Below are positions 815 to 13,013 of a stretch of 13,013 nucleotides of DNA, one piece after another. Both the position numbers and the translations under genes were made by a program. Below the pieces are notes generated by a model that had not been told where the DNA came from, did no database searches, and saw only the letters and a list, made by a program, of their open reading frames with translations. Source of the stretch: Thermoplasmata archaeon (GTDB taxonomy: Archaea; Thermoplasmatota; Thermoplasmata; GCA-020350865); the NCBI GenBank assembly GCA_020351895.1, contig CP070672.1, positions 3,088,823 through 3,101,835 on the forward strand, in the 5' to 3' direction. Every line of letters starts with the position of its first letter. The first letter of the stretch is position 1.

Positions 815-2482
815 ATGAGAAAATTATCTGTTGTATTTATCATTCTCTCGATTTTCTTCGGAATTTTTACTTGTGTTCAAAACGAAGAGGCTAATGCATA
901 TAAGTTCAGGGGTAATTTGCACCACATTGGGGTTTACGAATCCACTGTACCTGATAATAATTCTCTTCTGTGGAGCTTTGATACCGGCTCTCCCATGGAA
1001 TCGTCCCCTGTTATCGTGGATGATAGGGTGTATTTTGGCAGTGACAATGATTTGGTGTATTGCCTTGATTCGTATACTGGAAAAGAAATCTGGAATTTTA
1101 CAACAAAAAATTCTGTGAAATCCACACCAGCGGTTGTGGATGGGGTTGTTTATGTTGGCTCCACCGATGGTAACCTGTATGCGCTTGATGCCGAAACAGG
1201 GGATAAATTATGGAATTATTCCATCCCTTTCGCTCAGATAAAATCATCTCCTGCAGTATCCCATGATAAAGTATTCTTCGGTGCTTCGGATGGAAATATT
1301 TACGCCCTGAATCAATCAACCCATGAATTGGAATGGTCATTTCCAACTGGGATGGAAATTCAGTCGAGTCCTGCCGTTGATTGGCCATATATATATATCG
1401 GCTCGATTAACGGGAATGTTTACTGCATCTGGGCCAACAATGGAACCGAGAAATGGACTTACGAATCTGGAGGCTCCTATGAAATTTACTCGTCACCTGC
1501 CATTTCCAAAGGAGCCTTATTCATAGCGGCTGGATGGACAGGTGAAAACGGCGCTGTCTTCTGTCTTGATGCCCAAACAGGTCAAGAAATATGGATATTC
1601 CACCCCCCTGGTTGGGGACGGTACTCGGAAGTGTACTCATCCCCTGCAGTGCACAATGAAACAGTGTTTATTCATGCTTGGTATATTCTCCAGTGGGGCA
1701 TGCGTAAAGGGACATTGTATGCACTTCCAGAGCAGGATCCAAACGGCGACGGCAATATCTCACTAGACGAGGTAAAATGGAGTTTTACAACATGGGATTA
1801 TGATGGAGGATCATCACCAGCCGTAGCTGATGGAAAGGTGCTTGTAGGTTGCACCGAACGTAAATTGCACTGTGTGAATGAAACAACAGGTGAAGAGATC
1901 TGGAACTTCACAACCGGTGCAAAGATACATTCTTCACCTTCTGTTGCCAACGGTATCGTATACGTCACTTCCTTGGATGGCTCTATATACGCCATAGGAG
2001 GAGGTGGACCAGCAATCCTTGATATCGAAATCCTCCCTGAATTTTCATCAATAAAGGCGAACAGGGTTATGGGTATCTCCTTCTCGGTGACATATAGGGG
2101 TAAACCCATTGAGGGGGCTTTTATCAATTTTGCGGTAAGTGATGGCAACCTTTCCCAGCAAGGAGCAAGCACATTTCCAGATGGATCTCAGAGAGTAAAA
2201 TACACATCCCCCAAAACCGATGAAAATATCACAATAACTGTGCATGCCACCGTCACGAAGTTCGGATATCCGGAGGGGGAATCCTCGGTCCAATTCATTG
2301 TAGAGCCTGCGTCCTCTTACGGCAAGGTAAGCACTGGCAGCACCATCTCTCTATCGAGATATTGGTTTTATATAGTCCTGATTGTGGCACTCATTGCAAT
2401 AAACGTGATCATAGTTATCGTGAACGCCAAAAGAAAAGGCAGAATAATAGATGATAAAGAGACATTGAGTGAAGAAGCATAG
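815..2482 (+). CDS. Exported PQQ/BamB-like beta-propeller protein with EF-hand insertion, Ig-like domain and C-terminal anchor
   Basis: The 555-residue protein has a signal peptide (residues 1-28, probable cleavage after ANA). Residues 50-396 form a PQQ-type propeller with eight SSPAV-like strand motifs (63, 103, 144, 184, 226, 275, 333, 373) and tryptophan-docking ends of the TGxxxW type (TGKEIW, TGDKLW, TGQEIW, TGEEIW). Residues 400-497 look like an Ig/invasin-type sandwich, and a membrane helix spans 517-538 with a basic then acidic tail. Blade 6 carries an EF-hand-like loop, DPNGDGNISLDE (308-319). About ten N-x-S/T sequons fit an extracytoplasmic location. I see no residues showing that PQQ itself is bound; such folds more often act as scaffolds, as BamB does. 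The start is supported by gagg at 803-806 and by the signal peptide. It is the first gene of the operon, with 8 bases to the next gene. Cys20 does not sit in a convincing lipobox. Confidence 0.9.
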   Translation: MRKLSVVFIILSIFFGIFTCVQNEEANAYKFRGNLHHIGVYESTVPDNNSLLWSFDTGSPMESSPVIVDDRVYFGSDNDLVYCLDSYTGKEIWNFTTKNSVKSTPAVVDGVVYVGSTDGNLYALDAETGDKLWNYSIPFAQIKSSPAVSHDKVFFGASDGNIYALNQSTHELEWSFPTGMEIQSSPAVDWPYIYIGSINGNVYCIWANNGTEKWTYESGGSYEIYSSPAISKGALFIAAGWTGENGAVFCLDAQTGQEIWIFHPPGWGRYSEVYSSPAVHNETVFIHAWYILQWGMRKGTLYALPEQDPNGDGNISLDEVKWSFTTWDYDGGSSPAVADGKVLVGCTERKLHCVNETTGEEIWNFTTGAKIHSSPSVANGIVYVTSLDGSIYAIGGGGPAILDIEILPEFSSIKANRVMGISFSVTYRGKPIEGAFINFAVSDGNLSQQGASTFPDGSQRVKYTSPKTDENITITVHATVTKFGYPEGESSVQFIVEPASSYGKVSTGSTISLSRYWFYIVLIVALIAINVIIVIVNAKRKGRIIDDKETLSEEA

Positions 2483-2490
2483 GGATCAAT

Positions 2491-3708
2491 ATGGGTACAT
2501 TTACAAATAAAGCATCCGCATTTCTGACCTTTCTGATGATATCCTGTGCAATACCGTTTTCTGTGGAGGGTGATGAAGCAATAGACATAACCTCCTTAAA
2601 CCTTCTTTGGGAGAATAAAGAAGGACATAACGCAACGTTGTGGTCCGTAAGATGGTCCCCTGATGACAGCATGATATCTGGAACTTATTTTGATAACACC
2701 ACCACCATATTCAATGCCATTAATGGTAGCATAATTGTGAAGTTGGGCTCACATCCCCAAGGACGGGGAACACGATGTGATGGAATCCAAGATTGCTCAG
2801 GCGCCAATCATTTACCAACAAGAACCAGCGCATGGTCTCCCGATGGAAGGTATTTGGCAACAGGTGGAGATAATAGATTAATAATCGTATACGATACAAC
2901 CGATTGGTCAATTGCAAAGATTTTCGAAGGGCATGAAGGGAGCGTGCTCACCCTAGAATGGTCACGTGGAGGATCCATGATAGCTTCAGGTTCAGGCACC
3001 GACAAGGTGGCCATGCACAACTTACCTGAGAACTTGATTAAAATCTGGGATTTCTCTTCCGGGGAAGTACTGGCAAATCTAAAAGGACATCAGGACGGTG
3101 TTATGAACATCAGATGGTCTCCCAACGGTTCACAGATTGCTTCCGCATCCGATGACAAGACCATAATGCTCTGGGAAACCACAAACTGGACAAGAACGAG
3201 GACTTTAATTGGACATACTCTCGGAGTATTGGATGTGGATTGGTCCCCCAATGGAACCTTACTTGTTTCCGGCAGTAGAGATTATAAGATCAGGACTTGG
3301 GATGCCGTAAACGGTGAGGCCCTTCAAAGGTGGACTGAACCCAACTGTATTCGTTCTGTTCATTGGCATCCTTCTGGAGAGCTTGTGGCAAATTCAGGTG
3401 TTGATGAGGTGATGTTAAAGATTCGTAATGCAACAACTGGTACGATAATGAAAACTTATACCGAGTCCGCAGATACAAAGAGTGTAGTCATGTCCTCGAG
3501 GTGGTCTTCGGATGGAAGAAAGCTGGCAGCCGGTGCGGGAAAGGAGCATACACTAAGGGTTTATTCTTTTGGTGTATCCGCTCCTGAAGAGGAAGAGGTT
3601 ATTCCTTCATGGTTGCCCGGAACGATATTATTTGTGGTAATAGCTGCCATTGGTGTATCCTTATTACTGATACCCATCAGACCCAAGTTGAGAGAGAGCG
3701 GGAGGTGA
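2491..3708 (+). CDS. Exported WD40-repeat beta-propeller protein with C-terminal anchor
   Basis: The 405-residue protein has an N-terminal hydrophobic signal (about 8-26) and seven WD40-type blades at about 36-75, 106-137, 143-187, 196-229, 238-271, 280-312 and 325-359. Classic GH...WD spacing is clear in blades 3-5 (GHEG to KIWDF, GHQDG to IMLWET, GHTLG to IRTWDA), with repeated RWSPDG/WSPNG turns. A loop before blade 2 contains Cys96 and Cys102, which could form a disulfide outside the cell. A membrane helix spans about 374-395 and is followed by a short basic tail (RPKLRESGR). Seven N-glycosylation sequons (Asn47, 69, 78, 212, 232, 254, 313) support export, whereas most studied WD40 proteins are intracellular. 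The start follows the previous stop by 8 bases with only a weak SD (aggga), suggesting translational coupling. WD40 propellers are protein-interaction platforms; no enzymatic residues are visible. Confidence 0.88.
   Translation: MGTFTNKASAFLTFLMISCAIPFSVEGDEAIDITSLNLLWENKEGHNATLWSVRWSPDDSMISGTYFDNTTTIFNAINGSIIVKLGSHPQGRGTRCDGIQDCSGANHLPTRTSAWSPDGRYLATGGDNRLIIVYDTTDWSIAKIFEGHEGSVLTLEWSRGGSMIASGSGTDKVAMHNLPENLIKIWDFSSGEVLANLKGHQDGVMNIRWSPNGSQIASASDDKTIMLWETTNWTRTRTLIGHTLGVLDVDWSPNGTLLVSGSRDYKIRTWDAVNGEALQRWTEPNCIRSVHWHPSGELVANSGVDEVMLKIRNATTGTIMKTYTESADTKSVVMSSRWSSDGRKLAAGAGKEHTLRVYSFGVSAPEEEEVIPSWLPGTILFVVIAAIGVSLLLIPIRPKLRESGR
3701..3708 (+). promoter_or_regulatory. Shine-Dalgarno that contains the upstream stop codon
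   Basis: GGAGGTGA is a near-perfect SD lying five bases before TTG at 3714. Its last three bases are the TGA stop of the WD40 gene. It decides the start of the next gene: TTG 3714 is well spaced, while in-frame GTG 3705 lies inside the SD itself. Confidence 0.7.
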
Positions 3709-3713
3709 AAAAG

Positions 3714-5132
3714 TTGCCTAATAGTTTTATTAAGATATCTTCTCTGACCCTTTCTTTTCTTTTAATCACCTCCTTATATTTAATATCCTCTCCTGCCAGA
3801 GCTGATATCGATTCAGACTACCTGGGCAGCAGCCCCGGGAGATTCAACTCAATAAAAGCCTTGGATATTGATGGGGATGATAATATAGAGGTGGTCATGG
3901 GAAATTACGATGGCTACCTAAACATAATCGAAAGCAGGGACGGAAGTTATTTTGAAGAATGGCGCTCTAAAAACCTGGGCCATAGGTTATGGGGACTCGA
4001 GATTGCGGATTGCGATTCCGATGGCACATTGGAAATAATCACAGGCAATGGTGAGGGGATAGTGTACATCTTTGATGCGATATCTCATAAGCAGGAGTGG
4101 AAAAGTGAGGGGGAGGATTTGAGGATAGACGATTCTATTATCGGAAAAATTGAGGATCTGGGGGACACTCTAGGCCGAGATGCCCATGGTATTGCTGTTG
4201 GGAATGTAGATGATGATGAAAATCTGGAAATTGTCATTGGCACCGGCTATAAAACCGATACTCCATGGGGGAGAATCTATATTGTGGATGGAAAGACCCA
4301 CAAAATAGAAGGCTTAATAGGGCCAATATCCTCAAGGCATCGAGGAGTGGTAATCGATGATATAGATTTGGACGGGGAAAATGAAATCATCTTCGGAAGC
4401 GGGGTTTCTTTGGGTGAGACCGCAGGAGAGGGTTACATCTACATCTACGGTCATGAGGAAGGGGATTATATCAGGGAATGGAAAAGTGAGGATTTGGACG
4501 GTGATGTTATAGGTCTAAAAACTTATGATCTGGATGGGGATGGGAACCTTGAGATAATTGCTGGTAATGGATACAGGTACAATCAAGGCTACTGCTTTAT
4601 TTTCAAATTTGTTGGAGAGGGAAGTTCTCAAGGAACCGGTAATCCGCCCATCTACCAGCAGGTTTGGGAAAGCGAGGACATCGGTCCCAAGGCTTATGGA
4701 TTGGATGTGGGGGATATTGATGGAGATGGGATAGTGGAAATTGTGATCGGAAATCAACCGGGATACATTTGGATCTTTGACTCATCCACACACGAAATTG
4801 AGTGGAAAAGCCAGCTCTTGGGAACAGATATCTTGGGCATCGAAATAGCAGATGTGGATTATGATGGGGAGCAGGAGATCATAGCGTGTCAGGGTGGCTA
4901 CGTAGGCAAGTCCGACTGGACCTCAGCCTATACCACCCCGCATATATATATTATAAATGGAAAGACTCATGAGATTGAGTTTAAATTGGGGGAGCCAGAT
5001 TACATGGGAATCGTGCTGCAAGCGGTAGTAATTCTGCTTGTTGTCGTAACCCTGATCAATATCAACCTTGCTCTTAGAGCCAAAAAACCAAGGCGAAAAA
5101 TGAAGATGGGTTCCCGTAGGGGAATAACATGA
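3714..5132 (+). CDS. Exported FG-GAP/VCBS (integrin-alpha-like) beta-propeller protein with C-terminal anchor
   Basis: Read from TTG at 3714 the product is 472 residues; an ATG at 3609 in the same frame would overlap the WD40 gene by 100 bases and put the signal peptide inside the protein. GTG 3705 is an alternative that adds three residues. A signal peptide covers 1-30 (cleavage after ARA). Seven FG-GAP-like repeats each carry a calcium-loop motif followed by an E-I-V/I strand: DIDGDDNIEV (51), DCDSDGTLEI (99), NVDDDENLEI (164), DIDLDGENEI (216), DLDGDGNLEI (272), DIDGDGIVEI (334) and DVDYDGEQEI (380). Several repeats share an extra xEWKSxxLG strand. A membrane helix covers about 431-452, followed by a strongly basic tail (RAKKPRRKMKMGSRRG). 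The fold is that of integrin alpha heads, calcium-stabilised and used for binding; no ligand is evident. It ends 10 bases before the next gene. Confidence 0.87.
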   Translation: MPNSFIKISSLTLSFLLITSLYLISSPARADIDSDYLGSSPGRFNSIKALDIDGDDNIEVVMGNYDGYLNIIESRDGSYFEEWRSKNLGHRLWGLEIADCDSDGTLEIITGNGEGIVYIFDAISHKQEWKSEGEDLRIDDSIIGKIEDLGDTLGRDAHGIAVGNVDDDENLEIVIGTGYKTDTPWGRIYIVDGKTHKIEGLIGPISSRHRGVVIDDIDLDGENEIIFGSGVSLGETAGEGYIYIYGHEEGDYIREWKSEDLDGDVIGLKTYDLDGDGNLEIIAGNGYRYNQGYCFIFKFVGEGSSQGTGNPPIYQQVWESEDIGPKAYGLDVGDIDGDGIVEIVIGNQPGYIWIFDSSTHEIEWKSQLLGTDILGIEIADVDYDGEQEIIACQGGYVGKSDWTSAYTTPHIYIINGKTHEIEFKLGEPDYMGIVLQAVVILLVVVTLININLALRAKKPRRKMKMGSRRGIT

Positions 5133-5142
5133 GGGAAGAAAA

Positions 5143-5916
5143 ATGCTTCTTGAATTGATAGTTGCAGCCACAATCGGAATTTCCTTTGGCAATGTATGGA
5201 CCTGTATATTCATGGGTTTCGGCACGTCAACTAAAAACAGAAGTGTCGGCAAATGGTTCATAGCAGGTAGGTTCTTGGGATTGATGATACTGGGCTCTGT
5301 GATCTCCTTGTTGAGGTTCGCAGCCCAGGATGCCATACCCATCGTACTTTTAGTATTTGGAATTTCCACCATCACATTCGGATTGTTCATGCTAATTGGG
5401 CACCTCATTAAAACCCGATTTTCCAAGGAGGATTCCCATCCTTCTACAAATAGAAGTATCAGCGACAATTTCATATCTTCGCTTCTTTCGTATTTCATGG
5501 TGGTTCCGGGAAATCAAAAATGCAAGGGAAAGAAACACGAAATTCACGGGCGGGGTTTTAAAGGACGTCATCACGATCACAAAAGGAAAGAAGAATGTAA
5601 AAAACATGGGAACTTCGACAAAAGATACGGTTTTACGCTGGGAGTTTTAAGGGGTGCAACCCCATGCCTGAAGATTGTGGTTTTAACACCTCTTTTAGTT
5701 GCTTTCGGATTCCCACAATCATTGCTTCTCATAATAGTTTATGCTTCTGTCTCAACCATCTATCCGATAATCGGATATCTGTCCGCAGACATTCTTTCGA
5801 AATTCGAAAGGTATCAATGGGCATTCAAGATTCTCGGTGCCCTGATTCTCATAACAATAGGGATATACACGATCATCAAGGTATTGATGTGGGACACAGC
5901 CCATATCGGAATGTGA
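5143..5916 (+). CDS. Six-helix CcdA/DsbD-like (LysE-superfamily) membrane protein with a His/Cys-rich loop
   Basis: The 257-residue integral membrane protein has helices at about 3-25, 39-59, 64-90, 163-188, 190-214 and 225-249. The two halves look like a pseudo-repeat, each with a glycine-rich first helix carrying one cysteine: NVWTC (Cys21) and GATPC (Cys175). Paired membrane cysteines of this type are used by CcdA/DsbD proteins to pass thiol electrons across the membrane; UreH/TauE-like transporters share the fold, so transport is an alternative. The linker between helices 3 and 4 (126-161) is very basic and contains six histidines and two cysteines (Cys127, Cys152, HHDH at 143-146), suggesting cytosolic metal binding. 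The positive-inside rule places it in the cytosol. gaggga (5131-5136) is the SD. Its place directly before a membrane polyferredoxin supports an electron-transfer role, but this is not proven. Confidence 0.72.
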   Translation: MLLELIVAATIGISFGNVWTCIFMGFGTSTKNRSVGKWFIAGRFLGLMILGSVISLLRFAAQDAIPIVLLVFGISTITFGLFMLIGHLIKTRFSKEDSHPSTNRSISDNFISSLLSYFMVVPGNQKCKGKKHEIHGRGFKGRHHDHKRKEECKKHGNFDKRYGFTLGVLRGATPCLKIVVLTPLLVAFGFPQSLLLIIVYASVSTIYPIIGYLSADILSKFERYQWAFKILGALILITIGIYTIIKVLMWDTAHIGM

Positions 5917-5921
5917 AGAAA

Positions 5922-6869
5922 ATGAGAAAACCCAATATAAACGAGTGGCGACTTATTAGTCAAGTCGCTTGGCTTGTGGTGATAAGCAGTGTGCTTATTG
6001 GAGTGCCCTATTTCAGCACCCTTTCCTTGACAAAAAACATCTTCTGGCCGAATCTATCAACACGGTTTTTGGTCAACAATCCAACCACCAGTTTCATGTA
6101 CCAGATCCAATCGCGCTTAGCCAGCGGCTATGAGACCTTTTATGTGAATTTAATTATCCCGTTCTTTGTCTTTTTATTGCTGGTAATGATTCTTGGTCGG
6201 GTCTGGTGCGGTTGGTTGTGTCCAATAGGCTTTTTGCAGAACTTTCTTTTACGAATCAGAAAAAGATTGAACATATGCTATTGGGAGGTTCCACCAAAAG
6301 CCACCCTCATGCTCAATCAGATGGGATACGTCATTCTCTTTCTGATAATCCTAATTTCATTGTCTGTTGGCGTCACGTTTTTGGGAATCAACAATTTCTT
6401 CACCAGATCCGAGCTCCCCTTCGAATCAGTGGCACCACCCCGTCCAATCACAATATTTTTACAGCAGTTGTTGGGCCTTGAATCCTGGGATGCTACGATT
6501 CCTTTGGTGGGAATAATCGTTGCCTTGGTTGTTATAGTTTTATCCTTTAAAGTCAGGCATTTTTGGTGCAGAATATGCCCTGCAGGGGCGCTTATGTCCC
6601 TCTTCAATCGCAGGGCCTTAATCAACATCAAGAAGGATGGAACAAAATGCACAAAATGTAGGGTATGCATCCGCTCCTGTCCCATGGACATCGAAGAGAT
6701 TTATGAGGAGAAGGATCAGGATAATGTGACAAACGGAGCCTGTATACATTGTTATAGATGTATTGAGTTATGTCCAGAGGATGGGTGCCTCAGTGTTACA
6801 TTCCTAAATAAAACCATTGTAAAATCAAAATATCCTTATTCACCTTCAAAAAAGGAAGTGGTAGGATGA
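5922..6869 (+). CDS. NapH-type membrane polyferredoxin (4Fe-4S binding)
   Basis: From ATG 5922 the product has 315 residues. The in-frame ATG at 5664 would give a long overlap with the preceding gene and a non-membrane leader, so it is rejected; GTG 5913 remains possible. Four helices lie at about 12-32, 73-93, 134-155 and 190-210. The NapH/CcoG/NosR-family motifs are present: GRVWCGWLCPIG (Cys96, Cys100) after helix 2 and FWCRICPAGA (Cys216, Cys219) after helix 4. Two complete ferredoxin motifs follow, CTKCRVCIRSCP (Cys243/246/249/253) and CIHCYRCIELCP (Cys274/277/280/284), enough for two [4Fe-4S] clusters on the cytosolic side. Such proteins relay electrons between quinone or membrane donors and a partner oxidoreductase. 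No nitrate or nitrous-oxide reductase gene is nearby. The gene ends in an ATGA overlap with the next gene, which makes that protein the likely electron acceptor. Confidence 0.88.
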   Translation: MRKPNINEWRLISQVAWLVVISSVLIGVPYFSTLSLTKNIFWPNLSTRFLVNNPTTSFMYQIQSRLASGYETFYVNLIIPFFVFLLLVMILGRVWCGWLCPIGFLQNFLLRIRKRLNICYWEVPPKATLMLNQMGYVILFLIILISLSVGVTFLGINNFFTRSELPFESVAPPRPITIFLQQLLGLESWDATIPLVGIIVALVVIVLSFKVRHFWCRICPAGALMSLFNRRALINIKKDGTKCTKCRVCIRSCPMDIEEIYEEKDQDNVTNGACIHCYRCIELCPEDGCLSVTFLNKTIVKSKYPYSPSKKEVVG

Positions 6870-8251
6870 GGTTGCGTGGCGGAAAAAGAAGCAAACTGAA
6901 TGGGCAGGATGGCCAAAAAGAGAATCCAGATGGGATATCAAACCTGAAGGCTATTGAAAAAAGGTATGTAAGTTCAAGGGTGACCGAAGATATCGAGGGC
7001 AAGAGGGAACAGATTATTTCCGGTATGAAAGCAATGTTGGATGCGGAAATTAAAAAACTTCAGATTATGCCCAATAGGGCAAAGTCGATGGGTTATTTCG
7101 ACAGCATTGCACAATTTTTTGGCAGGCGGGCTGAGGAATTGCAAGAATTCAAAAATAATGGAGGAAAGGTGGTTGGCTCATTATGCATGTTCGCTCCCAC
7201 CGAGATCATAGCAGCCTCAGGTGCGTTACCGATAAGGTTTTGCAGTGGATTTCATGAGCCCACCGGCCCTGCAAATGTGATTTTGGGTGATGCCGGTCTC
7301 TGCCCCCTTGTGAAATCCACTTTGGGTCTGAAAATGGCCTCAGCTTCCCCTTACCTTAACATGTGCGATCTATTGATTGCACCAACACCCTGTGATGCAA
7401 AACTCAAGTTGGGGGAGATTTTGCAGGATTACCTCCCTGTTCTTCTGATAAATGTTCCCAAGGTTAAGGCAGGGGCAGTGAATCGAAAGCAGTGGATCGA
7501 AGAGATAGGAATAATAATGGACAAACTCGAACTTTTAACAGGTAAAAAAATCAAGAAAGCGGACCTTAAAAAGAGCATAAATATGTATCAGCGTGCATAC
7601 TCTGCATATAGGGAACTCATTTCATTGAGAAAGGAGGCTGACGTTCTCTGGGGTAGGGACACTTTAATGATAGCTCAATTGAGCTACTATGACGATATCG
7701 AAAGGTGGACAGATAATTTACTGAAGTTGATTGAAGAGCTTAAGATTATGAAGCAAGAAGGAAAGCGTGTTGCTGAGCCTGATGCCCCAAGAATTTTGCT
7801 GGCCGGCTCCCCGATAATATGGCCCAATTGGAAGATACCTGATATAATCGAAGAGAGTGGAGGATTGATAGTTGCCGATGAACTGTGCTCTGCAACGAGG
7901 GCCCTTTCAAATCCTGTGGTAGTGGATGAATATACTCAATCCGGAATGATAGATGCAGTGGCCGATCGATACCTCTACCCATGCACATGTCCCTGCTTTT
8001 CCCCGAACATAGAAAGGGATGACGATTTGAAGAATCGAATTAAAGATTACAAGGTTGATGGTGTAATCTTCCATGTGCTTAAGGGATGTCATCTCAATGC
8101 ATTGGATGCCACGAGGATCAAAAGAATATTGGAGGAGGCAAACATTCCCATGTTCACCATCGAGAGTGAATATGTAATGGGAGATTATCAGCAGATAAAA
8201 CTGAGGCTAGAAGCATTTATGGAGATGGTGAGAGCCCAGGATGTGTTTTAG
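6866..8251 (+). CDS. 2-hydroxyacyl-CoA dehydratase subunit D / HgdB-BcrB/C-double-cubane family FeS protein
   Basis: The 461-residue cytosolic protein (no signal, hydrophilic start) belongs to the HGD-D family. The family start motif is seen at Cys107 (GSLCMFAPTEIIAASGALP), the second ligand region at Cys146 (DAGLCPLVKS) and the C-terminal one at Cys408 (HVLKGCHLNALD). There are ten cysteines in total: 107, 126, 146, 167, 176, 341, 373, 375, 377 and 408, with a striking CTCPC at 373-377. Known members use one [4Fe-4S] cluster per subunit for radical dehydration or benzoyl-CoA reduction, or an [8Fe-9S] double cubane (DCCP/YjiM type) that reduces small molecules. All known systems need an ATP-dependent activase (HgdC/BadF type), and none is encoded in this window. 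It stands alone rather than as an A/B pair, which favours a DCCP-like homodimer. The start overlaps the previous stop by ATGA, with ggaagtgg as SD. The substrate cannot be assigned. Confidence 0.85.
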   Translation: MRLRGGKRSKLNGQDGQKENPDGISNLKAIEKRYVSSRVTEDIEGKREQIISGMKAMLDAEIKKLQIMPNRAKSMGYFDSIAQFFGRRAEELQEFKNNGGKVVGSLCMFAPTEIIAASGALPIRFCSGFHEPTGPANVILGDAGLCPLVKSTLGLKMASASPYLNMCDLLIAPTPCDAKLKLGEILQDYLPVLLINVPKVKAGAVNRKQWIEEIGIIMDKLELLTGKKIKKADLKKSINMYQRAYSAYRELISLRKEADVLWGRDTLMIAQLSYYDDIERWTDNLLKLIEELKIMKQEGKRVAEPDAPRILLAGSPIIWPNWKIPDIIEESGGLIVADELCSATRALSNPVVVDEYTQSGMIDAVADRYLYPCTCPCFSPNIERDDDLKNRIKDYKVDGVIFHVLKGCHLNALDATRIKRILEEANIPMFTIESEYVMGDYQQIKLRLEAFMEMVRAQDVF

Positions 8252-8334
8252 ATACGGAGCAGTACAATTTTGGTATACAGCTGCAAAATAGAATAAATTC
8301 AACAAAAAATATAGGAAAGAAAATCAATCAGGAA

Positions 8335-8340
8335 GGAGGT
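8335..8340 (+). promoter_or_regulatory. Strong SD of the Kelch gene
   Basis: ggaggt stands ten bases before ATG 8351 and fixes the start. The 99-base gap before this gene shows no clear terminator and only weak TATA-like stretches (around 8270-8312), so the gene may be read through from the operon or have its own weak promoter. Confidence 0.5.
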
Positions 8341-8350
8341 AGGGCGAAAA

Positions 8351-9421
8351 ATGAGAAAGGCAATTGTTTTTTTAGTGGCAGGTCTGATGATTCTGCTTCC
8401 CTCATTTATCATCAACTTCAATTCAAATGCAGATAATGGAAAAATAACAGAGCTGGAGAGCCTGCCTTTACCAATCTATAGAGCATCGGCTATTTGGGAT
8501 GGTGAGGAAGTTTACATTTTCGGGGGAAAAGACGGCACTTCAGGTCTGGATACGATAGTTCACTATTCACCATCCACAAAAAAAGCCGTTGTTCTCGATA
8601 CAACATTACCCAAATCAAAGGACGGCGCCACGGCCATATGGAGCGGTCAGCACGCTTACATATTCGGGGGAAATTTTGAAGGAATAAGCACGAAGGATGT
8701 CTTAAGATTCGATCCATCAACAAGTGAAATAATAAAAATGGAGAGCGAGCTTCCTTGGGGACTGCAGGGCTCCTCTGCATTTTGGGACGGACAATATGCA
8801 TACATATTCGGGGGCCATGATGAAGATAAAATCTTTCATCCCGAGATAATCAGGTACGATCCAATCGAGGATAACATCAGCATTACAAACTTTCTTCTTC
8901 CTGCGGTAAGGGCAGGTACTTCTGTAGTCTGGGATGGAGAAAAAGCTTACATCTTTGGAGGGAGAAACAAGACCATTATATATAATGAAATTCTGGAATT
9001 TGATCCTGATGAAGGAACTGTTACAATATTAAATGTGGTCCTACCAGGACCTAGATACCACACATCGGCGGTATGGACCGGAACCCATGCCTATATCTTT
9101 GGTGGAAGAAACGATACATCGGTTGTCGATGATATCATAATCTACGAGCCTTCTTCCGATTCAGTTTCAGTGGAGGATGTGAAGCTACCTTCCGCAAGGG
9201 AGCGGACTTCGGCTGTTTGGGTAGGGGATTATGCCATCGTTTTTGGGGGGCAATCAGGAGCCGAGTATTCAGATCAGATACTGAAGTTCGATCCCGAAGG
9301 CAAGGGTGGGGTTCAACCCGATGAGCCGTTTCTGGTTTATCAACTAATGGGGCTGGTGGGTATCATGGTTATCGTTGTCTGGTTGGTGGGGAGGAGGAAA
9401 AGAGGAAGTAGATATAACTGA
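8351..9421 (+). CDS. Exported Kelch-repeat beta-propeller protein with C-terminal anchor
   Basis: The 356-residue protein has a signal peptide (residues 1-27) and six Kelch repeats, each with a near-identical SAxWDGxxAYIFGG core; the IFGG/VFGG motifs lie at 56, 104, 152, 201, 249 and 297. This gives a complete six-bladed propeller. One membrane helix spans about 327-346 (QLMGLVGIMVIVVWLVG) and is followed by a basic stop-transfer tail, RRKRGSRYN. Sequons at Asn175, 206 and 254 fit export. Kelch domains bind proteins or sugars, or form the galactose-oxidase fold, but I see no copper-oxidase signature. It has the same topology as the three propeller genes at 815-5132 although it belongs to a different sequence family and lies 99 bases after the operon. 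A detached copy of its C-terminal anchor occurs at 12396-12446. Confidence 0.88.
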   Translation: MRKAIVFLVAGLMILLPSFIINFNSNADNGKITELESLPLPIYRASAIWDGEEVYIFGGKDGTSGLDTIVHYSPSTKKAVVLDTTLPKSKDGATAIWSGQHAYIFGGNFEGISTKDVLRFDPSTSEIIKMESELPWGLQGSSAFWDGQYAYIFGGHDEDKIFHPEIIRYDPIEDNISITNFLLPAVRAGTSVVWDGEKAYIFGGRNKTIIYNEILEFDPDEGTVTILNVVLPGPRYHTSAVWTGTHAYIFGGRNDTSVVDDIIIYEPSSDSVSVEDVKLPSARERTSAVWVGDYAIVFGGQSGAEYSDQILKFDPEGKGGVQPDEPFLVYQLMGLVGIMVIVVWLVGRRKRGSRYN

Positions 9422-9644: not shown

Positions 9645-12314
9645 ATGTCAAGAGGAAGAGGAGAATCAAAATGTGGAAGAGTCTTTTCAATGAGTATTTG
9701 TGTAATGTTTGTTTTGAGCTCTTTGTTGGTTAGTATTTTCATACAAATACCCAATGCAAGTGCTGGTTCTGTCAGCCATAATAATGGAAATCTAGATATC
9801 AATTGGCTCTCGGATTATGGGAGGATTCTTACGCCCCTTATCTGGAACCTACCACAAACAGCAACTGACCCTTTGACTGGTCTTGCGTTTATTGGTTTGG
9901 TTGTAGATCAGGACAATTATGATCATACACCAGGATCTGAAGATATAGCTGATTGTTTTGCTCCACCTGCTCCTTACATGTTCTTCGATGACTTTGAAAT
10001 GATCGATATAAACATGGTAGTGGATGATGGAATACTCAAAAAAAGTAAGGCATATTTCCAGAATGTAGGATTGGGAACCGGTGATCCCAACGATATCTAT
10101 TTTGAACAAACTTGTTGGACAGTTACCAACAAAGATTGGGCTATCCTTCAATGGAAATTGAGTAACCTGAAAAACGTACCAATTACAGGTGTTCATATTG
10201 GTCTAGAATTGTCAATCTCCCAAGTTGGAGCCTATTTTGGTTTAGGCGGTTCTAATCCGGACGGTGGTGATGATATAGACGGTTTTGATATAGCAAATGG
10301 AGTCTACTGGGCTCAGGATGCTACTGGAAGTGGCGCCGGCACCACTCTAGGATTCGGCTCCGCAATCATTTCAGACCCAATTACCCATTACTATGCAGAA
10401 GATTATCATGTCGAGTTTGAAAATACCAGCGATCCTAAAGATCCGGATCCAAAATATCATAGAAATTTTTATGCAGATGATACTTGGTTGTACGAGAGGC
10501 TTCATTCATCAAATTCAACAGCAGGGGGACCAGGAAATATCACAGCCACCATTGGATGGAATGGCTTAATGATTCCAGCTGAATCCTCTAGAACCGTAAC
10601 AATAGCAATAGCAGTGAATGATACATTTGACAATATGTTATCAACCATGGAGGACGCACGATATTATTATCACAACATAGCAACCGGTTTTCTCATCACT
10701 GAGTTTTCTGATGCTGACTCCACAACCCAGCAAATCGAGATATATAATTTTGGTCGTCCGGAGACAGATTTATCTGAATTTTACTTTTCCACAAAAAGTG
10801 GGCTTTTAACCGGGGCCTGGAATCCATCTATCATTCAAACCAATGAACATGCCGTTTTTACTGTTACTGGGGGAACCATAGGACCTGAGGGCGATACCAT
10901 TAGGCTATACCATGATCTGGGAGCACCCCCTATTCTTGAGGATGAAGTGGCATTTGGACAAGAAGGTGTGGCTCCCGACCCATTGGCCGGTGAATCTGTC
11001 GGAAGGCGATATGGTGTTGAATATACCAATGAATGGGTTCGCAGTACATCCACTGGTCCAACATGGGGTGCCCAAAACGATGTTGGGAGCGTTGCTACTT
11101 CCCATCAATTGGTCCTCAACCAGGTAATGTTTAATCCAATAAATCCGGCTGATGGCTATCTAGACCTGATGTATATAGATTCATCATCCCTTGATATATC
11201 AGGTTATAAAATCGTCTGCGATGATGAATTCATAGTTCCAGCTGGTACTATTCTTGACTCAAACAACAGGTTTTATACCCTCACTCAATCGATTTTTCCG
11301 ATATTCTTCGCAAATATGGATTCTTCTGGGGATAACATATATCTATACGATCATAACACCAATCTCCTGGATATGGTGGGATGGAATACCGCACATACAC
11401 CAGGATTGAGTGTACGAAGGATCCCTGATGGAAAAGGTACATATCAAGGTTATAATGATACAACATCAGAAGCAGCAGGTTGGGTCTTTGACTACGGTCA
11501 ACCGCCTTTATTAACCCCTCCACCTCCTACAGGACTGCAGGCTAGACTTACAGGGAGCAATGTCAATGTTACACTTACCTGGAACGCTTCTTCCGACGAT
11601 GGAGGCGGTGAAAACGATGTGGCAGGTTATACAGTTTACAAATCAAGCACGGGAGTGAACGGAAGCTATGAATTCACTGCCTGGATACCTGCAAGTGGTT
11701 CTGCTAATTATAATTGGACAGATGTGGGAGCTGGGGATGGAGATTGGAATAATTATTTCTATCTGGTTAGAGCAAATGACACTTTGAATGTTGAGGAGCA
11801 GAACATAAATAAGGTAGGCAAATTCGTTAATTATCTTATAGAGGGTTGGAACCTATTTTCTAAACCATTCATTCAATCCGATACCTCAAGGGATAATGTC
11901 CTCGATACTCTAAAAGGCAATTATGTGGTATTACAAGGATACCATGCAGGCAAGTCTAGACCTTGGCTGCACTGGCATAGGGATAAACCGAAAAAATTCA
12001 ACGATGAAATAGAAATCAATCATGAAGGAGGTTATTACATCGATATGGTAAATCTGGACTACCTCATTGTGGCAGGAGTGGTTCCAACAAACACACAAAC
12101 ATCACTTAAAGCGGGATGGAATCTAGTGGGCTATCCATGCCTGATTGAAAAAACAAGGGATGTTGCACTTTCCTCAATTGCCGGAAAATACAACAAGGTA
12201 GAGTACTATGATACTTCCCTAGATAAAGAGGTCAGACTAGAGCCTGACGAGCTTATGCAAACAGGCTTGGGATATTGGATTCATGCAACCGAGGATTGTG
12301 TTCTCATCCTTTAA
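9645..12314 (+). CDS. Large secreted protein: lamin-tail-like domains, fibronectin III domain, duplicated GWNL module
   Basis: The 889-residue protein starts after an excellent SD (gaggagg, 9631-9637). The signal peptide spans 1-40 (hydrophobic core 17-34, cleavage after ASA). Residues 45-345 are an unrecognised beta-rich domain with a DQDNYDHTPGSEDIADC segment and aspartate/glycine loops. Residues about 346-478 resemble a lamin-tail domain (LITEFSDADSTTQQIEIYNF), and 487-618 look like a second one (LVLNQVMFNP...GYLDLMYIDSS). Residues 626-728 are fibronectin type III (PPPPTGLQARL...VTLTWNAS...YFYLVRAND). The tail contains two related modules beginning GWNLFSKPF (734) and GWNLVGYPC (824). No C-terminal TM helix is seen, so it is either free or bound non-covalently, unlike the four propeller proteins. 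A cell-surface or envelope role is likely; the ligand is unknown. A diverged second copy starts at 12685. Confidence 0.82.
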   Translation: MSRGRGESKCGRVFSMSICVMFVLSSLLVSIFIQIPNASAGSVSHNNGNLDINWLSDYGRILTPLIWNLPQTATDPLTGLAFIGLVVDQDNYDHTPGSEDIADCFAPPAPYMFFDDFEMIDINMVVDDGILKKSKAYFQNVGLGTGDPNDIYFEQTCWTVTNKDWAILQWKLSNLKNVPITGVHIGLELSISQVGAYFGLGGSNPDGGDDIDGFDIANGVYWAQDATGSGAGTTLGFGSAIISDPITHYYAEDYHVEFENTSDPKDPDPKYHRNFYADDTWLYERLHSSNSTAGGPGNITATIGWNGLMIPAESSRTVTIAIAVNDTFDNMLSTMEDARYYYHNIATGFLITEFSDADSTTQQIEIYNFGRPETDLSEFYFSTKSGLLTGAWNPSIIQTNEHAVFTVTGGTIGPEGDTIRLYHDLGAPPILEDEVAFGQEGVAPDPLAGESVGRRYGVEYTNEWVRSTSTGPTWGAQNDVGSVATSHQLVLNQVMFNPINPADGYLDLMYIDSSSLDISGYKIVCDDEFIVPAGTILDSNNRFYTLTQSIFPIFFANMDSSGDNIYLYDHNTNLLDMVGWNTAHTPGLSVRRIPDGKGTYQGYNDTTSEAAGWVFDYGQPPLLTPPPPTGLQARLTGSNVNVTLTWNASSDDGGGENDVAGYTVYKSSTGVNGSYEFTAWIPASGSANYNWTDVGAGDGDWNNYFYLVRANDTLNVEEQNINKVGKFVNYLIEGWNLFSKPFIQSDTSRDNVLDTLKGNYVVLQGYHAGKSRPWLHWHRDKPKKFNDEIEINHEGGYYIDMVNLDYLIVAGVVPTNTQTSLKAGWNLVGYPCLIEKTRDVALSSIAGKYNKVEYYDTSLDKEVRLEPDELMQTGLGYWIHATEDCVLIL

Positions 12315-12644: not shown

Positions 12645-12684
12645 ATGTATTGACATAGAGTTGGATAATAGAGGAGGAAATAAA

Positions 12685-13013
12685 ATGTTGAGAGGAAGAG
12701 GAGAATTCAACCGAAAAAAGTTCTTTTCATCGAACGTTTGTGTAACACTTGTGATAAGTTCTTTATTGGTTGGAATTCCCATACAAATACCTAATGTAAA
12801 CGCAGGTGCTGTCAACCATAATGTGGGTAATATCGATATCTTGTGGCTCACCGATTATGGGAGGATCATGGGGCCTATATCAAGGAACAAAACCCAGACA
12901 GCTTCTGACCCTTCGACAGATCTTGCGTTTATTGGCCTCGTGATAGATCAGGACAACTATAATCATACTCCTGGATCTGAGAATATCGCAGATTGTTACA
13001 GTCCACCTCCTCC
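12685..13013 (+). CDS. Paralog of the lamin-tail/fibronectin secreted protein (3' partial)
   Basis: The ATG follows gaggaggaaataaaatg, identical to the leader of the gene at 9645. The frame is open for 109 codons to the window edge. The product starts MLRGRGEFNRKKFFSS, has a signal peptide ending near PNVNAG, and continues with NIDILWLTDYGRI and LAFIGLVIDQDNYNHTPGSE. A hand alignment gives about 71 identities over 110 positions with the N-terminus of the 9645 product, including the shared Cys in IADC. It is therefore a tandem paralog with the same unrecognised N-terminal domain. Whether the lamin-tail, fibronectin and GWNL parts are retained lies outside the window. Confidence 0.85.
   Translation, partial: MLRGRGEFNRKKFFSSNVCVTLVISSLLVGIPIQIPNVNAGAVNHNVGNIDILWLTDYGRIMGPISRNKTQTASDPSTDLAFIGLVIDQDNYNHTPGSENIADCYSPPP

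Follow-up and report, generated by a model that had tools for sequence, protein, structure and literature searches.

The DNA analysed here is a 13,013-nucleotide stretch of a Thermoplasmata archaeon genome (contig CP070672.1, positions 3,088,823 to 3,101,835; hereafter the window), whose + strand carries, in order, genes for PQQ-type, WD40 and FG-GAP propellers, a CcdA-like membrane protein, a NapH-like membrane ferredoxin, a homologue of the double-cubane cluster protein (DCCP) and a Kelch propeller. Comparison with relatives, a group of uncultured archaea, shows that the PQQ, WD40 and FG-GAP propellers, NapH and DCCP form a conserved system; every contig that covers the full run has them in this order. 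We put at roughly one half (0.5) the probability that the window's locus is one version of a conserved Thermoplasmatota membrane redox machine, for which we infer the electron flow and the substrate.

Conserved order of the propeller and redox genes

The genes from PQQ to DCCP are closely packed, with successive spacings of 8, -4, 10, 5 and -4 bp between PQQ, WD40, FG-GAP, CcdA-like, NapH-like and DCCP genes, so that three propellers stand in one run with redox genes, as a first-pass annotation of the window had claimed. The FG-GAP gene starts with a GTG at 3705 that overlaps the WD40 stop, and the Kelch gene begins 99 bp past the DCCP gene on the same strand. Propeller genes are abundant in relatives, where six related genomes each hold 1 to 17 stretches matched by PQQ_2 (E<=1e-15) and 42 to 105 matched by FG-GAP_3 (E<=1e-5), and clustering in a single genome would therefore prove little.

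As an independent test, the WD40 alignment alone was searched over 389 genomes of the phylum Thermoplasmatota, giving 17 matches in 16 genomes. Loci (L numbers; genomes have G numbers) were extended to longer stretches and scanned in all frames with profiles, and the counts given here use contigs that reach far enough. A PQQ gene lies directly upstream of WD40 in 16/16 reaching matches (L038 is cut by its contig) and an FG-GAP gene directly downstream in 16/16 (L032 is cut), the FG-GAP matches in L034 and L035 being fragments of 38-39 bits at contig ends. With blastp on the same 17 matches the figures are 14/17 for PQQ and 15/17 for FG-GAP; the frame-wise profile scan gives the counts used. 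When the window and the loci derived from a CcdA-like query are added (23 WD40 loci), PQQ is upstream in 22/22 and FG-GAP downstream in 22/22 reaching loci. NapH and DCCP come next on the same strand in all 16 loci that are long enough, 10 of them from the WD40-only search, while seven end too early. Identity of the WD40 proteins to that of the window falls from 72 to 34% among these loci, and three propellers of different families remain together over deep divergence. Because the order is conserved across relatives, the PQQ-WD40-FG-GAP grouping goes beyond chance; the first-pass annotation had named random scatter in relatives as the outcome that would speak for chance, and what is found is PQQ in 16/16, FG-GAP in 16/16 and NapH-DCCP in 16/16 loci.

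The CcdA-like query returned ten loci in genomes assigned to Thermoplasmata, Methanomassiliicoccales or Euryarchaeota archaeon, and the order PQQ-WD40-FG-GAP-CcdA-NapH-DCCP is kept in seven of them (L001, L002, L004-L008). The others are interrupted, L009 and L010 by contig ends and L003 by an assembly gap. L003 was considered as a counterexample without propellers and set aside, since a gap of 100 N (L003:9305-9404, in a chromosome-level record) cuts its FG-GAP gene, whose remaining fragment begins at the gap, and the apparent gene loss is not evidence of loss. In G009 (L105) a permease, PQQ, WD40, FG-GAP and the start of a CcdA-like gene are followed by the end of the contig. Seven of the 23 WD40 loci (L001, L002, L004-L008) were first found by the CcdA query and thus favour CcdA; the 17 WD40-only matches are independent of neighbours and include two of the CcdA-query loci (L001, L007). 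For the scan, the core-gene profiles drew on the window and L001-L010, the permease profiles on eight permeases and the activase profiles on those of L029 and L055; all these sequences match by construction. Several loci are close kin, with WD40 proteins at least 90% identical (L005/L007, L008/L013, L015/L017/L018, L023/L024), and many relatives are fragmented metagenome assemblies. Outside the phylum, a WD40 relative occurs in Thorarchaeota SMTZ-45 with a locus tag adjoining that of an FG-GAP relative, and one further WD40 relative in Altiarchaeales, both among the matches listed (120 of 509 and 120 of 494).

The redox genes have nearly the same distribution as the cassette of propellers. At thresholds chosen after the score gap was seen, the specific NapH (E<1e-60) is found in 15/389 genomes and the specific DCCP (E<1e-140) in exactly these; all 15 belong to the 16 with WD40, and neither protein is found in the other 373 genomes of the phylum sample (hypergeometric 4e-26, uncorrected for kinship). 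The exception among the 16 is G051, where the cassette lies on a short contig and the NapH match is only weak. Looser homologues are commoner, with NapH in 27 genomes at 1e-25 and DCCP in 20 genomes at 1e-60.

The encoded proteins

Table 1. Genes of the propeller and redox run in the window, with the evidence for each assignment (TM, transmembrane)
Feature	Position	Strand	Evidence
Predicted exported 8-bladed PQQ-type (BamB-like) propeller with C-terminal Ig-like (Big_1-like) domain and TM anchor; core gene 1	815..2482	+	PF13360 (PQQ_2) 7.7e-48
Predicted exported 7-bladed WD40 propeller with C-terminal TM anchor; core gene 2	2491..3708	+	PF00400 1.8e-45; AlphaFold2 model
Predicted exported 7-bladed FG-GAP propeller with C-terminal TM anchor; core gene 3	3705..5132	+	PF13517 (FG-GAP_3) 5e-17
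CcdA-like six-helix membrane protein, one conserved Cys per half (Cys21, Cys175), variable loop	5143..5916	+	Alignment, Cys counts, AlphaFold2 model
NapH-like membrane ferredoxin, 4 TM; core gene 4	5922..6869	+	PF12801 1.6e-15, PF13237 6.8e-10
DCCP-type HGD-D protein, predicted cytoplasmic; core gene 5	6866..8251	+	PF06050 3.6e-91
Predicted exported 6-bladed Kelch propeller with C-terminal TM anchor; lineage-specific addition	8351..9421	+	Kelch_1 (PF01344) 9.1e-23, Kelch_6 5.6e-25

The four propeller families named by the first-pass annotation, with eight PQQ, seven WD40, seven FG-GAP and six Kelch repeats, are borne out by Pfam, by the translations, from which the PQQ, FG-GAP and Kelch blades were counted, and by an AlphaFold2 model of the WD40 protein with seven blades and a C-terminal helix (mean predicted local distance difference test score, pLDDT, 89.5). 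The single membrane topology proposed for all four is confirmed, with a qualification for one tail. A hydropathy scan finds a hydrophobic N-terminus and a single C-terminal hydrophobic helix in each, and the basic tail is clear in FG-GAP (9 K/R, 0 D/E), Kelch (5, 0) and WD40 (4, 1), but the PQQ tail is basic at its start and balanced overall (5 K/R, 5 D/E). The Big_1-like match of the PQQ protein (PF02369, 5.6e-4) is below the family cut-off.

Two cysteines of the WD40 protein are family-wide, Cys96 being present in 134/143 alignment rows (the remaining nine are gaps) and Cys286 in 143/143. A third, Cys102, is found in 9/11 CcdA-bearing loci and 0/12 others; of these twelve, eight are shown to be CcdA-free at the locus (one truncated before the position) and four have uninformative contigs, and the comparison of 9/11 with 0/7 gives a Fisher's p of 0.002, uncorrected for kinship. 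In the model, Cys96 and Cys102 lie in a loop (86-109) whose residues 89-101 have pLDDT <50, and Cys286 stands just ahead of a strand from 287.

The Kelch protein does not belong to the core. It is encoded at the locus only in the window, L001 and L002 (60% and 66% identical to the window's), with a remote Kelch in the G010 genome, among the loci scanned; most core loci are without it, and it was rejected as a core member. The unit of four propellers put forward at first is thereby reduced to a core of three, and Kelch is a lineage-specific extra.

The CcdA-like protein has Cys21 in 35/35 and Cys175 in 39/39 of the aligned members that have a residue there, one Cys per pseudo-repeat, and in its AlphaFold2 model (pLDDT 69.6) helices are broken near both. 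No Pfam or NCBIfam family matches it at E<=0.01, and a sequence search of the PDB with its alignment (A1) gave no match. The NapH-like protein, which matches Fer4_5 and Fer4_10, combines CxxxCP and CxxCP motifs in its membrane part with two 4Fe-4S ferredoxin motifs; Cys96, 100, 216 and 219 and the eight ferredoxin cysteines are invariant in its alignment (A5), and transmembrane counts of its relatives support the 4-TM layout. Against TIGR02163 (NapH/MauN) it scores 2.3e-23 and 83.1 bits, below the cut-off of 213.05. The DCCP homologue matches solved DCCP (PDB 6eno/7yyl) over the catalytic part at an E of about 1e-91 with alignment A6, in which Cys107, 146, 176, 341, 375, 377 and 408 are invariant (9 rows) and aligned with Cys of 6eno; against NF040772 it reaches 2.3e-100 and 336.3 bits, below the cut-off of 350. 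No partner ATPase (PF01869) was found by Pfam beside DCCP among the window proteins.

On either side of these genes the window holds the end of an Asp-rich protein (3-620), with a membrane helix followed by a zinc-ribbon-like CxxC pair below family cut-offs, a lamin-tail-domain (LTD) protein (9645-12314) and the start of a similar one (12661-13011). LTD-like proteins recur in L001, L042 and L043.

Editions of the system and the NifB neighbourhood

The system exists in two main editions, one with activases after DCCP and the other, which includes the window, with the two-cysteine CcdA-like protein before NapH; both features occur in G010. Of the reaching loci that lack the CcdA-like gene, 8/8 have two activases after DCCP (L029, L030, L031, L033, L037, L038, L039, L055; in L031 and L038 the contig stops within these genes), and their family was confirmed on the L029 pair (PF01869, TIGR00241). 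The CcdA-like gene is present in the window's kin and missing at the locus in these eight. Activases accompany it in 1/11 loci, that of G010, the eleven counted being the window, L001-L007, L040, L054 and L056, with L008 and L009 omitted because each stops no more than about 0.9 kb from DCCP. G002 and G007 also have activase pairs, which were not adopted as partners of the window-type DCCP; they adjoin two other HGD-D-like genes in an arrangement resembling that of benzoyl-CoA reductase.

A double FtsX/MacB_PCD permease lies directly upstream of the core in 13/16 reaching loci. Its family was named on the L004 and L029 copies, which match FtsX and MacB_PCD, and a first guess that this upstream protein of 1,100-1,230 aa is an RND pump was dropped. 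The permease is not beside the core in the window, L001 and L002, and a homologue is found elsewhere in the L001 and L002 genomes. A second PQQ propeller stands between permease and core in L029, L030, L031, L033, L036 and L039. Downstream of the activases, L029:1-1075 holds a TetR-type regulator (PF00440) and the start of an ABC ATPase-like open reading frame, a possible partner of the permease.

Further NapH-DCCP sets were observed. In the related ARRANGEMENTS, the L001 genome (CP070751) has a second NapH-DCCP set about 6 to 17 kb upstream of the cassette. This set (L042:7171-18715) consists of two activases, a predicted exported NosD-like beta-helix protein with a C-terminal TM helix, a NapH-like protein, DCCP and a further predicted exported protein, and its DCCP scores 422 bits, above the NF040772 cut-off. 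In G044 an N-anchored propeller-like protein of 629 aa (L052:4063-5952) is encoded directly upstream of NapH-DCCP. The association of NapH and DCCP with exported proteins of solenoid or propeller type may be more widespread.

Of the 11 genomes that have both the CcdA-like gene and the three propellers, 10 encode a NifB homologue (G001, G002, G004-G008, G010, G089, G302); it was not found in G009, a fragmented genome with permease, three propellers and CcdA-like gene. NifB occurs also in G003 and, of the other eleven cassette genomes in the sample, only in G038. TIGR01290 is matched above its cut-off by the G006 protein and below it by those of G001 and G002, and the G001 protein matches four PDB NifB entries (7bi7, 7jma, 7jmb, 6y1x) at 1e-79 to 1e-84. 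In 6 of the 11 genomes NifB has genes of the system as neighbours: in G006, G008 and G302 it follows DCCP immediately, in G010 it belongs to the same run of genes, and in G001 and G002 it sits with the permease, a PQQ propeller and a small Cys-containing membrane protein. It lies apart in G004, G005, G007 and G089. In G006, G302, G001 and G002 the gene after NifB (L104:3516-4924, L054:3388-4773, L043:10722-12134, L057:301-1667) encodes a small membrane protein that carries Cys motifs and matches no family. Since NifB is present in 62/389 genomes, 56 of them without the cassette, the link rests on adjacency only. The nitrogenase family (PF00148) has no match over the cut-off in 23 genomes, with one weak match of 22.7 bits in G038; 4/14 control genomes were positive.

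In PMC6053413, the ligands of MaNifB are given as Cys50/54/57 for S-adenosylmethionine (SAM), Cys30/63/129 for K1 and Cys264/274/277 for K2. At the position of K1 Cys63, G001, G002, G010 and G089 carry Tyr or Phe, and the 34 other alignment rows carry Cys, a count that leaves out L088 (gap) and the G008 row, whose genome is represented by L094. The clade without Cys63 has a His two residues further on (L043:11295-12134, L057:780-1667, L056:5927-6760, L099:8675-9505). With one K1-cluster Cys lost, the product of the G001-type NifB may differ from NifB-co, to judge by these residues. In the tree, the linked NifBs make up one group of G001, G002 and G010, joined by G089, and another of G006, G302 and G008, and the unlinked ones of G003, G004, G005 and G007 form a third. 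The neighbourhood of NifB and DCCP is notable because larger FeS assemblies are, according to PMC12491067, structurally known only in DCCP and nitrogenase-type proteins. We consider it possible, though unlikely, that the machine of the window's kin contains a non-canonical 8-iron cluster, which a NifB-type radical SAM enzyme would make or remodel with no nitrogenase present. Were this true, DCCP and nitrogenase, the two known 8Fe-cluster families, would be joined in one surface-facing redox machine, and a functional NifB link would mean that NifB is used outside nitrogen fixation. No literature joining NifB and 2-hydroxyacyl-CoA dehydratase was found in a search that left subscription literature mostly outside.

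A proposed redox machine, its alternatives and known systems

The reading of the locus as a redox machine is drawn from the NapH/DCCP link, together with the FtsX/MacB-type permease, DCCP activases and NifB in relatives. The three anchored propellers would form one ectodomain complex on the outer membrane face, NapH would carry electrons across the membrane, and DCCP, predicted to be cytoplasmic, would store or activate low-potential electrons. By analogy with DCCP reductase, ATP likely charges DCCP through the activases in the edition that has them, and electrons would leave via NapH for a substrate that the propellers bind, perhaps where the WD40 ring has its conserved cysteines. In the CcdA edition they may also leave as thiol or in-membrane electrons through Cys21/Cys175, and Kelch would be an additional ectodomain module of the window's lineage. 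Two genomes weigh against a strict link between propellers and redox genes. In G044 and G050, NapH, DCCP and activases are on contigs other than the cassette's, NapH is preceded by a different gene, and those contigs are without FG-GAP; co-occurrence holds there, adjacency does not.

The same two genomes speak for a surface platform for adhesion or sensing with no redox role, in which the redox genes are merely co-transcribed. Propeller folds commonly serve in protein binding, each of the four in the window is predicted to be exported and anchored, and the first-pass annotation had itself proposed a multi-propeller surface platform. That term describes no more than the anchors. A stronger signal comes from the association with NapH and DCCP, which stay with the propellers in 16/16 reaching loci and have a nearly identical genome distribution; this points to the redox machine and makes a platform without redox function improbable. 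Chance clustering of abundant propeller genes has a negligible probability. Such genes are numerous in these genomes, but the fixed order in every reaching relative rejects chance for PQQ-WD40-FG-GAP and leaves it for the recruitment of Kelch only.

Two further alternatives keep the redox genes and assign them another task. In the Nos apparatus, an exported propeller enzyme is served by NosR (a NapH-like ferredoxin), NosD (an exported solenoid) and NosFY (an ABC transporter), and a machine of this kind for cofactor assembly or export would use permease and propellers to place or mature a surface metal site, with NapH and DCCP as reductant. The permease directly upstream in 13/16 reaching loci would fit, as would the right-handed beta-helix protein with NosD similarity, predicted to be exported, in the second NapH-DCCP-activase locus (L042). 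However, that NosD-like protein is confined to the other locus, NosZ, NosL and copper-site families are absent among the window proteins (Pfam, NCBIfam), the permease does not adjoin the window's core, and the ATPase candidate is only a fragment at the end of L029; we regard this alternative as unlikely. A thiol or sulfur relay, in which the CcdA-like protein and the WD40 cysteines would handle extracellular disulfides or persulfides with electrons supplied by NapH and DCCP, draws on the constancy of Cys21 and Cys175, on the family-wide Cys96 and Cys286 and on the occurrence of Cys102 mostly with CcdA. Yet the eight activase-edition loci have no CcdA-like gene, so that it could be a variant role at most, and no thioredoxin-fold family was found among the window proteins (Pfam, NCBIfam), which leaves such a relay decidedly unlikely.

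Each part of the proposed redox machine belongs to or resembles a known family, and the combination is probably undescribed: judged by titles and abstract starts, with subscription papers mostly outside, the literature yielded no described system joining exported propellers to DCCP. The system resembles the Nos apparatus in having a NapH-type ferredoxin with a permease and exported beta-solenoid or propeller proteins, and differs in lacking the copper enzyme, in having DCCP (with activases in relatives) and in the FtsX/MacB type of its permease. The membrane domain of CcdA/DsbD, like RnfA/RnfE, has one Cys per pseudo-repeat, and the window's CcdA-like protein likewise has two halves with a conserved Cys near a helix break in each, but no sequence-family match. 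The NapH-like protein shares with the NapH/MauN and NosR ferredoxins four TM helices, CxxxCP/CxxCP and two ferredoxin motifs; unlike them it falls below curated cut-offs and has no Nap, Mau or Nos partners in the window. For NifB, the family match and conserved Cys positions concern relatives only; the differences from known NifB are that no nitrogenase-family match exceeds the cut-off in the 23 genomes and that one K1-cluster Cys is missing in the G001-type clade.

The closest comparison is with DCCP itself. A known pair is listed as DCCP and DCCP reductase in PMC7306483, and the homologue here is likewise an HGD-D family protein with aligned Cys, adjoined by two activases in the activase edition. 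The window has no adjacent activases, and its DCCP is tied to a membrane ferredoxin and three predicted exported propellers. As DCCP is without a clear physiological role according to PMC11971306, a conserved operon that joins it to a membrane ferredoxin and to fixed surface proteins offers a testable setting for that role.

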